Below, in pieces: positions 9,519 to 14,655 of a DNA stretch of 64,000 nucleotides (position 1 is the stretch's first letter; each line of letters starts with the position of its first letter). Made by a program: the position numbers and the translations under genes. The notes beneath the pieces are model-generated. The model had not been told where the DNA came from. It did not search any database and saw only the letters and a list, made by a program, of their open reading frames with translations. The stretch lies in assembly GCA_947500755.1 (NCBI GenBank), contig CANMTO010000001.1, positions 1-64,000 on the forward strand, given 5' to 3'. Source of the stretch: Flavobacteriales bacterium. GTDB lineage: Bacteria; Bacteroidota; Bacteroidia; Flavobacteriales_D; Crocinitomicaceae.

Positions 9519-9591
9519 AACGACTAGGTGCGAATGGTTCTTGAGTTTGCTCCGTCTAGGGCGAATCGAAGGGCCGCATCGAGTCGTTTTT
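9519..9591 (+). terminator. Long hairpin between convergent genes, possible bidirectional terminator
   Basis: Arms at 9519-9532 and 9575-9588 pair as AACGACT/AGTCGTT plus GGTGCG/CGCATC with one mismatch and one G-T pair. A T run follows the right arm. The loop is about 42 bases, long for a classical terminator. It sits between the M43 protease and the convergent small gene, whose stop codon overlaps the T run. Confidence 0.4.
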
Positions 9592-9919
9592 AATACTCCT
9601 TATAATTTTCTTCCCAAAAGCGACGCGCTTCTTCCCATGTAGGTATGGTCTCGCTCTCATAATGATAAGTACTCCCCGTAGCGATCTTTCGAAAGGATTT
9701 TACGGCTTTTAAATGAGGTCCTGAGCCTACAAATGCACGCAAGGTTCGCATGTCTTCCCATGCGGTTAAGGTATGCTGTATGCCGTGTATTCGTTTTACC
9801 TCACAAAACTTATTGCCAGGCGCATTTTTAGCCTGATTAAACGAGGGGATTGCTCTTAACCAAAAGGGAATGCTATGCAGAATGGACTTTGGCCTTAAGC
9901 CTGTGATGGAAATAATCAT
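9590..9919 (-). CDS. Small protein, possibly of the dimeric alpha/beta-barrel (antibiotic biosynthesis monooxygenase-like) superfamily
   Basis: This 109-residue soluble protein has no signal peptide. The pattern FWLRAIPSFNQAKNAPGN, then LTAWEDMRTLRAFVGSGPHLKAVKSF, resembles ABM/spheroidene-monooxygenase-like folds, in which a strand with L-T-x-W is followed by a helix ending in G-x-H. The function is unknown. It is transcribed divergently from the ars operon, and the operator-like palindrome at 9956-9973 lies 37 bases before its start, so ArsR could co-regulate it. That link is an inference; a heme-, flavin- or thiol-related role would be speculation. Confidence 0.7.
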   Translation of the reverse strand: MIISITGLRPKSILHSIPFWLRAIPSFNQAKNAPGNKFCEVKRIHGIQHTLTAWEDMRTLRAFVGSGPHLKAVKSFRKIATGSTYHYESETIPTWEEARRFWEENYKEY

Positions 9920-9955: not shown

Positions 9956-9973
9956 TATCGTAATATTGCGATA
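9956..9973 (+). promoter_or_regulatory. Operator-like palindrome overlapping the ars promoter (putative ArsR site)
   Basis: The 18-base inverted repeat TATCGTAAT/ATTGCGATA has a single mismatch and is centred 20 bases before the arsR start codon. A -7-like box TAATATTG (9961-9968) lies inside it, so a repressor bound here would block the promoter. ArsR/SmtB regulators bind AT-rich inverted repeats of this kind in their own promoter. The site also faces the divergent gene ending at 9919. Confidence 0.6.
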
Positions 9974-9983
9974 TGTATAAATC

Positions 9984-10319
9984 ATGGGGGTTACAAAAAT
10001 AGATTCTTATTCGCCGAGTGTGCTCGCCTTGTCGGAGGTGTTTAAAGCCTTAGGTCATCCGGCACGTTTGTCCATTGTTCAATACCTAATTGATAAAGGA
10101 ACGTGTATTTGTGGGGACATCGTTGACGAACTTCCCTTAGCGCAAGCGAGTATTTCAAGGCATCTTCAAGAATTGAAAAATGCGGGAATCATCAAAGGAC
10201 AAATTTCGGGCACTTCCGTGTGTTATTGTTTATCTGACGATCACTTAGAGTCGATGCTTACCCTGATTAATTCCATTAAATTATCCATTCCTAAATCCTG
10301 TTGCGATGACACTCCTTGA
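9984..10319 (+). CDS. arsR: ArsR/SmtB-family metalloregulator
   Basis: This 111-residue winged-helix repressor carries FKALGHPARLSIVQYLI at the start and the recognition helix LPLAQASISRHLQELKNAGII. Candidate As(III)/metal ligands are the Cys41-x-Cys43 pair just before the recognition region, Cys80-x-Cys82 in the wing, and vicinal Cys106-Cys107 near the C-terminus. It is first in an operon with DUF6428, acr3 and arsC, and its last codons overlap the next gene by 14 bases. It probably represses the operon through the palindrome ahead of it and releases DNA when arsenite or antimonite binds. Confidence 0.92.
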   Translation: MGVTKIDSYSPSVLALSEVFKALGHPARLSIVQYLIDKGTCICGDIVDELPLAQASISRHLQELKNAGIIKGQISGTSVCYCLSDDHLESMLTLINSIKLSIPKSCCDDTP

Positions 10320-10752
10320 ATTTAAAACTGCTCTTCAACAAGTGACTTATCCCACACTGTTGCTTCCAAATGGGACCCAAGTACCTGGACATTTTCATGT
10401 TACTGAATTGGCATTAATTAGTAAAAACTTTATTGATTGTGGAGGGGTAGCTAGATTAGAGCGAAAAGTTACGTTTCAAGTATGGGTAGCTAATGACCTA
10501 GATCATCGAATTACCGCATTAAAATGGTTAGGTATTCTCAAAAAAGGGGAGATGGATTATGGCCTCACGAATGAACTCATCGAAATTGAATATCAAGGAC
10601 AAACTATTGAACGTTATGGCCTCACATATACGGATGGGATATTTAATTTAATGCCATTATTTACTGAATGTCTGGCGCCTGATCATTGTGGAATTCCTTC
10701 GGAGCAATTACCATCAGCTGGTTCTTGCACCCCCGGAGGTGGATGCTGCTAA
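10306..10752 (+). CDS. DUF6428 family protein of the ars operon
   Basis: This 148-residue protein matches DUF6428, a family I recognise as commonly linked to arsR and acr3 in Bacteroidota. It has no signal peptide or membrane span. The C-terminus is Cys- and Gly-rich: two Cys in ECLAPDHCG, then CTPGGGCC with Cys141, Cys147 and the terminal Cys148. Such a tail could bind arsenite, for example as a chaperone that hands it to the Acr3 pump; this is an inference. Translation is coupled to arsR by a 14-base overlap, and acr3 starts 12 bases downstream. Confidence 0.82.
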   Translation: MTLLEFKTALQQVTYPTLLLPNGTQVPGHFHVTELALISKNFIDCGGVARLERKVTFQVWVANDLDHRITALKWLGILKKGEMDYGLTNELIEIEYQGQTIERYGLTYTDGIFNLMPLFTECLAPDHCGIPSEQLPSAGSCTPGGGCC

Positions 10753-10764
10753 AATCAATTGATT

Positions 10765-11802
10765 ATGAATAATATTCGATTAAAATTTCTTGACCGCTTT
10801 CTGACCCTTTGGATTTTCTTAGCCATGGGAGTTGGAGTGCTCCTTGGAAATATAATACCCAATGTAGAAGGAGTGTTGTCGAATGTTGCCATTGGTACTA
10901 CCAATGTTCCCTTGGCGATAGGACTCATACTCATGATGTATCCACCGCTAACCAAGGTGGATTTCGCAAAAGTACCTGCTACCTTAAGCAATAAACGCTT
11001 GTTGTTCTCCTCTCTTTTTATCACATGGATTGTGGGTCCCTTTTTAATGTTTTTACTGGCAATTACTTTTCTACCAAAGGATCCTGAATATTTAACGGGG
11101 CTAATTGTAATCGGTCTTGCACCGTGTATTGCCATGGTGATTGTATGGAACGACCTCGCTGGAGGTAACAGGGAGTTGGTCGCTGGCTTAGTAGGGATTA
11201 ACAGCCTTTTGCAAGTACTTTTTTTCAGTTTCTATGCGTATTTCTATCTAGAAATTATGCTTCCCCTGTTCGGATTCGATGCCATAACAATGGACATTAG
11301 CATGCTCGAAATTGCGAAAACGGTTGGAATTTATTTAGGTATTCCCTTTGCCGCCGCTATGTTGAGTAGGGCTGTGTTAATCCCTAAATTCGGACAAGAT
11401 TGGTTTCAATATAAGTTCCTTCCCAAAATTTCTCCAATTACCTTGATCGCCTTACTCTTTACCATTGTGGTCATGTTCAGTTTAAAAGGAAAACTTATTG
11501 CCACCTTGCCTTTAGATGTTTTTCGTGTAGCGCTTCCCTTGGTTATTTTCTTTTTGGTTATGTTCTTTCTTATGTTTTTTGTAGCCAAGACCATGGGGGC
11601 TTCGTACAAGGATACTGCTACCGTAGCGTTCACTGCTGCAGGAAATAATTTCGAATTGGCCATCGCCGTTTCCATCGGTGTCTTTGGTCTGAATTCCGGA
11701 CAGGCATTTGCTGGGGTTATCGGACCTTTAGTGGAGGTGCCGGCATTAATCCTCTTAGTTAAAGCCAGTTTAGCGTTAAAAAATAAATTTAGGAAGCCAT
11801 GA
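10765..11802 (+). CDS. acr3: Acr3-family arsenite efflux permease
   Basis: This 345-residue protein has ten hydrophobic spans. The Acr3 hallmark is the conserved Cys in LAPCIAMVIVWND (Cys121), which with a Glu in the AGNNFELAIA segment is essential for arsenite transport in studied members. It extrudes As(OH)3 in exchange for protons across the inner membrane. I chose ATG 10765 (MNNIRLKF) rather than the TTG six bases upstream. The stop codon overlaps the arsC start as ATGA, so permease and reductase are translationally coupled. Confidence 0.93.
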   Translation: MNNIRLKFLDRFLTLWIFLAMGVGVLLGNIIPNVEGVLSNVAIGTTNVPLAIGLILMMYPPLTKVDFAKVPATLSNKRLLFSSLFITWIVGPFLMFLLAITFLPKDPEYLTGLIVIGLAPCIAMVIVWNDLAGGNRELVAGLVGINSLLQVLFFSFYAYFYLEIMLPLFGFDAITMDISMLEIAKTVGIYLGIPFAAAMLSRAVLIPKFGQDWFQYKFLPKISPITLIALLFTIVVMFSLKGKLIATLPLDVFRVALPLVIFFLVMFFLMFFVAKTMGASYKDTATVAFTAAGNNFELAIAVSIGVFGLNSGQAFAGVIGPLVEVPALILLVKASLALKNKFRKP

Positions 11803-12197
11803 ATATTTTAGTCTTGTGTACAGGGAACAGCTGTAGAAGTCAGTTAGCGGAAGGATATATTCGTCATTTTCACGGGGCTGTTGCCACCGTTTATAGCGCA
11901 GGTATTGAAACGCATGGGGTTAATCCGCGTGCGATTGCGGTAATGACAGAAGATGGAATCGATATTTCAATGCATACCTCCAATCATGTAGACGAATACG
12001 TGCATATACCGTTTGATTTGGTCTTTACCGTGTGCGACCACGCCAGCGAGCAATGTCCTGTATTTCCAGGTGCGGTGAAGCGAGTTCATCACAATTTCCC
12101 TGATCCTGCTAAAGCAACGGGCACTGAAGAAGAGGTTATGAATGCCTTTCGTTCGGTCCGCGATGAGATTAAGTCCTTTTGTAAATCCTTGATATAA
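11799..12197 (+). CDS. arsC: Arsenate reductase, thioredoxin-coupled (low-molecular-weight phosphatase type)
   Basis: This 132-residue enzyme reduces arsenate to arsenite, which Acr3 then exports. The P-loop CTGNSCR (Cys7 to Arg13) is the CX5R signature of the LMW-PTP fold. The redox pair Cys79 and Cys86 (TVCDHASEQCP) and the Asp-Pro loop (FPDPAKATG) match the thioredoxin-dependent Staphylococcus-type ArsC rather than the glutaredoxin-dependent E. coli type. It ends the operon and is followed within a few bases by a strong hairpin terminator. Confidence 0.94.
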   Translation: MNILVLCTGNSCRSQLAEGYIRHFHGAVATVYSAGIETHGVNPRAIAVMTEDGIDISMHTSNHVDEYVHIPFDLVFTVCDHASEQCPVFPGAVKRVHHNFPDPAKATGTEEEVMNAFRSVRDEIKSFCKSLI

Positions 12198-12199
12198 AA

Positions 12200-12232
12200 A
12201 AAAGCCTCCCGCGAGCAGGAGGCTTTTCTTTT
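12200..12232 (+). terminator. Bidirectional rho-independent terminator between arsC and katG
   Basis: The stem AAAAGCCTCC (12200-12209) pairs perfectly with GGAGGCTTTT (12218-12227) around an 8-base loop. A T-rich tract follows, with the matching A tract on the other side. It lies between two convergent genes and should end transcripts from both strands. Confidence 0.88.
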
Positions 12233-12250
12233 GATTATTAAATCAACCGT

Positions 12251-14655
<2,405 letters not shown>

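Follow-up and report, generated by a model that had tools for sequence, protein, structure and literature searches.

Two groups of proteins are among the closest described parallels to the locus considered here. The first is the arsenite metallochaperone ArsD (PF06953, NF033727), a small protein of ars operons with cysteines at its C-terminus; according to PMC4562236, its chaperone activity requires Cys12, Cys13 and Cys18, and the C-terminal pairs of the Escherichia coli protein, at positions 112–113 and 119–120, are thought to be regulatory. The second comprises two arsenic-responsive repressors, both described in PMC11868830. ArArsR of Arsenicibacter rosenii has cysteines at positions 41, 43, 80, 82, 107 and 108, of which C41, C80 and C82 are required for sensing of trivalent arsenic, As(III), and C43, C107 and C108 are not; the authors describe repressors of this type as common among Cytophagaceae, Spirosomaceae and Flavobacteriaceae. 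AfArsR binds As(III) through Cys95, Cys96 and Cys102. The locus that we analysed lies in a window of 64,000 nucleotides from a Flavobacteriales bacterium (positions 1 to 64,000 of contig CANMTO010000001.1, assembly GCA_947500755.1). In this window a compact operon, with all genes on the + strand, runs in the order arsR, DUF6428, acr3, arsC-like. Its DUF6428 product ends in CTPGGGCC, and we propose, tentatively, that this protein is dedicated to the binding of trivalent arsenic. The features that bear on this proposal are as follows.

Positions 10306–10752, + strand: DUF6428 gene, encoding 148 residues; PF20001 matches residues 4–148 (expectation value E 1.1e-42, 145.9 bits against a cut-off of 28.7).
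Positions 10726–10752, + strand: DUF6428 C-terminal tail CTPGGGCC and stop codon, matching the tail pattern described below; proposed three-thiol arsenite arm C141/C147/C148.
Positions 9957–9972, no strand assigned: ArsR operator ATCGTAATATTGCGAT, a near-palindrome whose 16 bases are identical to the core of the ArArsR DNase I footprint given in PMC11868830.
Positions 9984–10319, + strand: arsR, encoding an ArArsR-type repressor of 111 residues (NF033788 metalloregulator, 73.7 bits against a cut-off of 55).

The six cysteines of DUF6428 are at positions 45, 122, 128, 141, 147 and 148. A preliminary description of this DNA had pointed out that ArsR ends in SCCDDTP and DUF6428 in CTPGGGCC, and that the two genes overlap. 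This is correct: the coding regions share 14 bases, and none but these two of the 64 open reading frames (ORFs) in the window that begin with ATG and span at least 100 residues has a CC pair in the last 8 residues. The accompanying remark that each protein has more cysteine pairs upstream holds for ArsR, which has two CxC pairs, and fails for DUF6428, in which C45, C122, C128 and C141 are single.

Conservation was assessed across 188 DUF6428 loci. A search with PF20001 of 395 genomes from the phylum to which the window belongs, its own genome included, gave 108 matches, all of which were used. The others are the 80 best among no fewer than 563 relatives in genome_contigs, with titles of Bacteroidota, Balneola-type records among them. 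The 187 loci with a called start were used for conservation and operator counts; the open frame of the locus left out, L150 in our numbering, also ends in CC. Because C45, C122 and C128 were part of the peptide patterns by which the 80 genome_contigs loci were found, those cysteines are biased in that set, whereas the tail is not. The PF20001 set is free of this bias, though the Pfam model covers the tail. A CC pair within the last three residues is found in 106 of 107 sequences of the PF20001 set and in 80 of 80 of the genome_contigs set.

The preliminary description had named conservation of the C-terminal cysteines among homologues as a check on its reading of DUF6428, which the outcome does not refute. 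The pair is in the last 8 residues of 186 of the 187 proteins, compared with 161 of 180 ArsR proteins and 14 of 806 other gene-like ORFs across the related loci, a distribution not due to chance. It is strictly terminal in 183 sequences and lies within the last three residues in a further 3, the remaining protein, from L124, ending in IC. The longer motif C-x-P-x3-CC is terminal in 166 of 187, and the strict form CxPGxGCC in 107. In a non-redundant set of 115 sequences at less than 80% identity, H31, T33, E34, D44, C45, G46, Q58, E95, C122 and C148 are invariant, and C147, C141 and C128 are present in 114, 100 and 94 sequences, respectively. A divergent subfamily of 15 of these 115 is without aligned C128 and C141; it keeps C45 and C122, and the full terminal pair is present in 14 of the 15. 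A distant homologue on plasmid 2 of Deinococcus deserti, outside the Bacteroidota, keeps the elements HVTE, DCGG, QCKA and CVPESGCC, the last followed by eight further residues. There (L292:4322–6619), arsR, DUF6428 and a gene of the major facilitator superfamily (MFS) stand in a row; the best NCBIfam match of the MFS gene is ArsK, at 102 bits, far below the cut-off of 400.

DUF6428 almost certainly belongs to the arsenic regulon, as judged from the distribution of the operator. In the window, the operator just upstream of the arsR start is the only + strand match at up to two mismatches, and in the 2.56 Mb genome it is the sole site with zero mismatches, two others having one. At the same tolerance of two mismatches, 159 of the 175 loci that encode ArsR have the core close to the start of arsR. 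The 1.29 Mb of loci hold 235 matches, of which 160 precede ArsR, 53 precede DUF6428 and 22 lie elsewhere; a shuffled control gave 12, the shuffle being mononucleotide and so weaker than a dinucleotide one. The copies near the called DUF6428 start, 53 in 187 loci, comprise 46 in the 174 loci where ArsR was detected and 7 in the 13 where it was not, two of these 13 (L074 and L188) ending at a contig edge. Because the operator occurs near the DUF6428 start, including at loci where no ArsR was detected, DUF6428 appears to belong to the regulon independently of arsR.

The window ArsR closely resembles ArArsR. Its cysteines, at 41, 43, 80, 82, 106 and 107, correspond to those at 41, 43, 80, 82, 107 and 108 in ArArsR; the operator core is the same, and Cys41, Cys80 and Cys82, for which PMC11868830 gives ligand roles, are all present. 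The operons differ, in that ArArsR is encoded in arsRMC, for which the authors list no further gene, whereas the window arsR precedes DUF6428, acr3 and arsC. By analogy with this studied relative, the ArsR tail cysteines would be dispensable for sensing. The preliminary description had taken the ArsR pair, too, for an arsenic site; as a sensor site it was rejected on the published ArArsR cysteine mutants of PMC11868830, the homologous pair being unneeded. The ArsR part of the finding is already published.

ArsR is the most constant partner of DUF6428. Neighbourhoods were counted at 140 loci with sufficient flank, several of all loci having only about 1.5 kb, and three ars families (ArsR, ArsC and Acr3) were scored. 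In 125 of the 140, an ArsR gene of the same strand is found no more than 1.2 kb upstream. This constancy, the coding overlap in the window and the retention of CC in 151 of 159 ArsR tails, although the pair is unneeded for sensing by ArArsR, would fit a role for DUF6428 as a modulator of ArsR, a co-repressor or inducer-loading factor, acting via the two CC tails. We consider such a role highly unlikely. Of 40 Acr3 loci of other genomes where DUF6428 was not found, 30 have ArsR (31 proteins), and CC is in the last 8 residues of 13 of the 31; by score, 10 of these 13 belong to the same kind of ArsR. Moreover, the Deinococcus DUF6428 adjoins an ArsR without CC in its tail. The CC tail of ArsR was for the same reason dropped as a mark of DUF6428.

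The downstream genes of the window operon complete the set.

Positions 10765–11802, + strand: acr3 arsenite efflux transporter (TIGR00832, 401.8 bits against an equivalog cut-off of 282.8); the ATG start at 10765 was taken, the ORF list giving an alternative TTG start at 10759.
Positions 11799–12197, + strand: arsC-like gene for a thioredoxin-type arsenate reductase (PF01451 above cut-off; TIGR02691 162.2 bits, slightly below its cut-off of 174.3), with cysteines at 7, 12, 79, 86 and 128.
Positions 12200–12227, + strand: possible operon end, an inverted repeat AAAAGCCTCC...GGAGGCTTTT and a T run, a candidate terminator by inspection of the sequence alone.

The closest named relatives are metagenome-assembled genomes of Flavobacteriales, at 70–74% identity, in line with which the phylum was taken as Bacteroidota. 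On the – strand, divergent from arsR, is an ORF of 109 residues (positions 9590–9919) without a Pfam family; similar proteins occupy the same position in the four closest named relatives (L032–L035). Convergent with arsC is a large – strand ORF (positions 12251–14605) with a signal-peptide-like start, a putative catalase-peroxidase.

The preliminary description had assigned DUF6428 a fixed place between regulator and pump and had suggested that it carries arsenite to Acr3. The wider comparison contradicts the fixed place and does not support a role specific to Acr3. Acr3 is the first ars family downstream of DUF6428 in the window itself; across the 140 loci, however, the first of the three scored families is ArsC in 97, Acr3 in 22 and ArsR in 3, with none in 18. 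In all, ArsC is present at 114 of the 140 loci and Acr3 at 82. The searches of the 395 genomes begin with a loose first pass, and absence here means absence at that sensitivity. DUF6428 was found in 96, Acr3 above cut-off in 249 and both in 59, so that there is no association between the two among these genomes (59/96 versus 190/299, Fisher p 0.72, odds ratio 0.91). Thirty-three of the 96 DUF6428 genomes have no Acr3 match at all and 4 have weak matches only; ArsB was not found in 36 of these 37, nor in 32 of the 33. Among the DUF6428 loci of these 33 genomes, 30 nonetheless include ArsR and 27 include ArsC, the flank being about 1.5 kb for some. It is therefore distinctly unlikely that DUF6428 is a chaperone feeding Acr3 specifically, as ArsD feeds ArsA, despite the presence of Acr3 at 82 of 140 loci, its place directly after DUF6428 in the window and the strict tail shared with ArsD. 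A role restricted to feeding Acr3 is hard to maintain.

In the 32 DUF6428 genomes with neither an Acr3 match nor ArsB, ArsK above cut-off was found in none, with weak matches in 8; ArsP is present in 7 and at least one channel of the major intrinsic protein (MIP) family in all 32. Such genomes may have an unrecognised exporter. A MIP channel is encoded near DUF6428 at 21 loci, 2 of which also have Acr3. Other recurrent neighbours are ArsO and ArsM, both above cut-off, a calcineurin-like phosphoesterase and GNAT proteins closest to ArsN1 or ArsN2, those tested falling below the cut-offs of these families. At L139 (2908–3480, – strand), the neighbour of DUF6428 is a protein of 191 residues that ends in KIRCC and has no Pfam or NCBIfam family; a protein of 190 residues at L096 ends in KIQCC. 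On a 19.7 kb plasmid of Empedobacter falsenii (L293), a complete arsR–DUF6428–phosphatase–acr3 set adjoins a predicted tet(X) gene.

The frequency of ArsC as the first ars family downstream (97 of 140 loci), and its retention next to DUF6428 in 27 of the 33 genomes that have no Acr3 match, raise the alternative that DUF6428 serves ArsC as a thiol partner, either by taking away the As(III) formed or by reducing the ArsC disulfide again. Thioredoxin-type ArsC operates with thioredoxin alone, and 26 of the 140 loci are without ArsC nearby; we give this alternative little credence.

The strict tail was then considered in its own right. A DNA pattern for CxPGxGCC followed by a stop codon, scanned in the 395 genomes, matched at 92 places in 83 genomes, a reversed pattern used as control matching at 6. 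The owners are DUF6428 at 52 places, ArsM at 22, ArsD at 10 and FmdB-like proteins at 2, tail-less models being used to tell ArsM and ArsD from DUF6428, since the tail alone can score. The remaining 6 are chance matches, 4 lacking a start codon in the open frame and 2 ending in TGG, a codon that the pattern also admits. Of the 86 genuine strict tails, 84 therefore belong to three arsenic families that are unrelated to one another in sequence. Sixteen of the ArsM tails were assigned by the tail-less model and 6 by reading, and six of the 22 were checked against NCBIfam. The ten ArsD proteins, three of them checked against NCBIfam, are of about 190–230 residues with a long C-terminal extension (L277–L281, L283 and L286–L289), and all ten have an operator-like site, with up to two mismatches, no more than about 70 bases from the called start; in L277 the site falls slightly inside the called frame. 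Beyond these three families, the strict tail occurs in the 395 genomes on one more, FmdB-type zinc-ribbon proteins (L290:2313–2540 and L291:2305–2559) of 75–84 residues that end in CTPGGGCC or CTPGSGCC; L290 was identified by family check and L291 by resemblance, and no operator was found in either locus. A search of the literature on the C-terminal cysteines of ArsD and ArsM, with subscription journals mostly outside its reach, gave nothing relevant.

These likenesses do not make DUF6428 a member of either family. DUF6428 is without the N-terminal CC-x4-C site of ArsD (Cys12, Cys13 and Cys18; PMC4562236), the first cysteine of the window protein being at position 45. The window protein has no match to the ArsD families of Pfam or NCBIfam above threshold, and 1 of 52 homologues matches at E 0.2. 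The possibility of a diverged ArsD was rejected: a profile comparison with tail-less ArsD cores gave nothing (hhalign probability 0.2%). ArsD and DUF6428 occur together in 3 of the 395 genomes (DUF6428 in 96, ArsD in 69; Fisher 4e-6), a figure confounded by phylogeny, and mutual exclusion was for that reason not used as proof. The arsenite methyltransferase ArsM (NF008823), which ends in the same strict tail in 22 genes, differs in this function and in its length of about 280–310 residues, and a match to a methyltransferase family was not found for the window DUF6428.

An AlphaFold2 model of DUF6428, calculated with 52 aligned sequences, has a mean predicted local distance difference test score of 86.5 and a predicted template modelling score of 0.77, with secondary structure in the order alpha-beta2-alpha-beta3; residues 121–148 have no secondary structure and low confidence. 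Foldseek gave no solved structure at E 0.001 (best E 0.019), the best Z in VIA-align was 2.8 among 999 chains, and sequence and profile searches gave no solved structures (best E 0.3 and 0.23). In the absence of a confident Foldseek or VIA-align match, the fold is without assignment, which is not proof of a new fold. Weak Pfam matches of family members beyond PF20001 (best E 0.008, FakA-like) were judged to be chance.

The invariance of H31, T33, E34, D44-C45-G46, Q58 and E95 in 115 of 115 sequences across subfamilies invites the alternative that these residues form the active site of an arsenic enzyme, with the tail bringing in As(III) or an organoarsenical. ArsM, itself an enzyme, may bear the same strict tail, and some loci join DUF6428 with ArsN1-like, ArsN2-like or ArsO genes. 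Set against this, no relative of known function was found by sequence (Pfam, NCBIfam and structure searches) or by fold, no recognisable cofactor motif was seen in DUF6428, and the invariant polar residues may equally be structural. We judge an enzyme to be unlikely, though the unusual invariance of the polar core speaks for one.

The account that we favour, with a confidence somewhat short of calling it probable, is that DUF6428 acts as a general As(III) acceptor for whatever exit the cell possesses. Its basis is what can be read directly in the sequences, namely the conservation, the operator, the neighbourhood and the tail common to ArsD and ArsM. From these we infer induction by arsenic, As(III) binding, capture and hand-off. 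The binding of arsenite by the tail is probable. A folded core with the invariant polar and thiol set (H31, T33, E34, D44-C45-G46, Q58 and E95) would carry a flexible C-terminal arm, the end of which, C-x-P-x3-CC, would supply three thiols spaced C-x5-CC in most members; in the divergent subfamily, C122 would be the closest conserved thiol upstream of the terminal CC. The spacing is the mirror image of that in AfArsR, where two of three thiols are adjacent and the third is five residues off (PMC11868830); the difference is that CC-x5-C lies inside a repressor and C-x5-CC at a free C-terminus. As a three-thiol site, the arm may capture As(III), including that made by the ArsC often encoded alongside, and the core may receive or present it. 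DUF6428 would then hand As(III) to the available exit, be it Acr3, an aquaporin-type channel or an ArsK-like MFS protein, and where no pump is recognised it would hold the As(III).

Several points weigh against this account. C141 is absent from the aligned column in all 15 divergent-subfamily sequences, and since the strict tail, moreover, is found in only 107 of 187 proteins, a single fixed arsenic site is not universal; homologue L124 ends in IC. The strict tail also occurs on the two FmdB-like proteins, which have no known arsenic link. Vicinal cysteines bind other soft metals too. The hand-off partners are deduced solely from gene order. With its invariant H/T/E/D/Q/E set, the core resembles a catalytic or ligand pocket more than a simple carrier would require. 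Overall, the earlier suggestion of an arsenite carrier is partly supported: the near-universal tail, the arsenic operator and a tail motif common to ArsM and the known chaperone ArsD, as well as the two FmdB-like proteins, speak for it, and what falls away is the specificity for Acr3 and the ArsR tail site.

A broader reading, which we think unlikely, would make CxPGxGCC a common C-terminal arsenite tag of the Bacteroidota on unrelated regulon proteins (DUF6428, long ArsD and ArsM), forming a thiol relay with DUF6428 as its hub; in pump-less genomes, DUF6428 itself would detoxify, as an arsenite sink or as a new arsenic enzyme of unrecognised fold. The family itself is already catalogued. In the literature searched, with subscription journals again mostly outside the search, no publication naming DUF6428 and no arsenite-binding measurement on it was found, and the single match to PF20001 was a chemistry paper on another subject; within that limit, the link between DUF6428 and arsenic, the second operator and the shared tail seem to be novel.

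To our knowledge, no arsenite carrier has been assigned in cells without ArsD. For a family that 96 of the 395 genomes sampled from the phylum encode, a specific, testable role with named residues can now be proposed. That DUF6428, ArsD and ArsM end alike suggests a short common module by which arsenite may be passed on. Where arsR–DUF6428–arsC operons occur in genomes with no recognised pump, one may ask how the cells dispose of arsenite.
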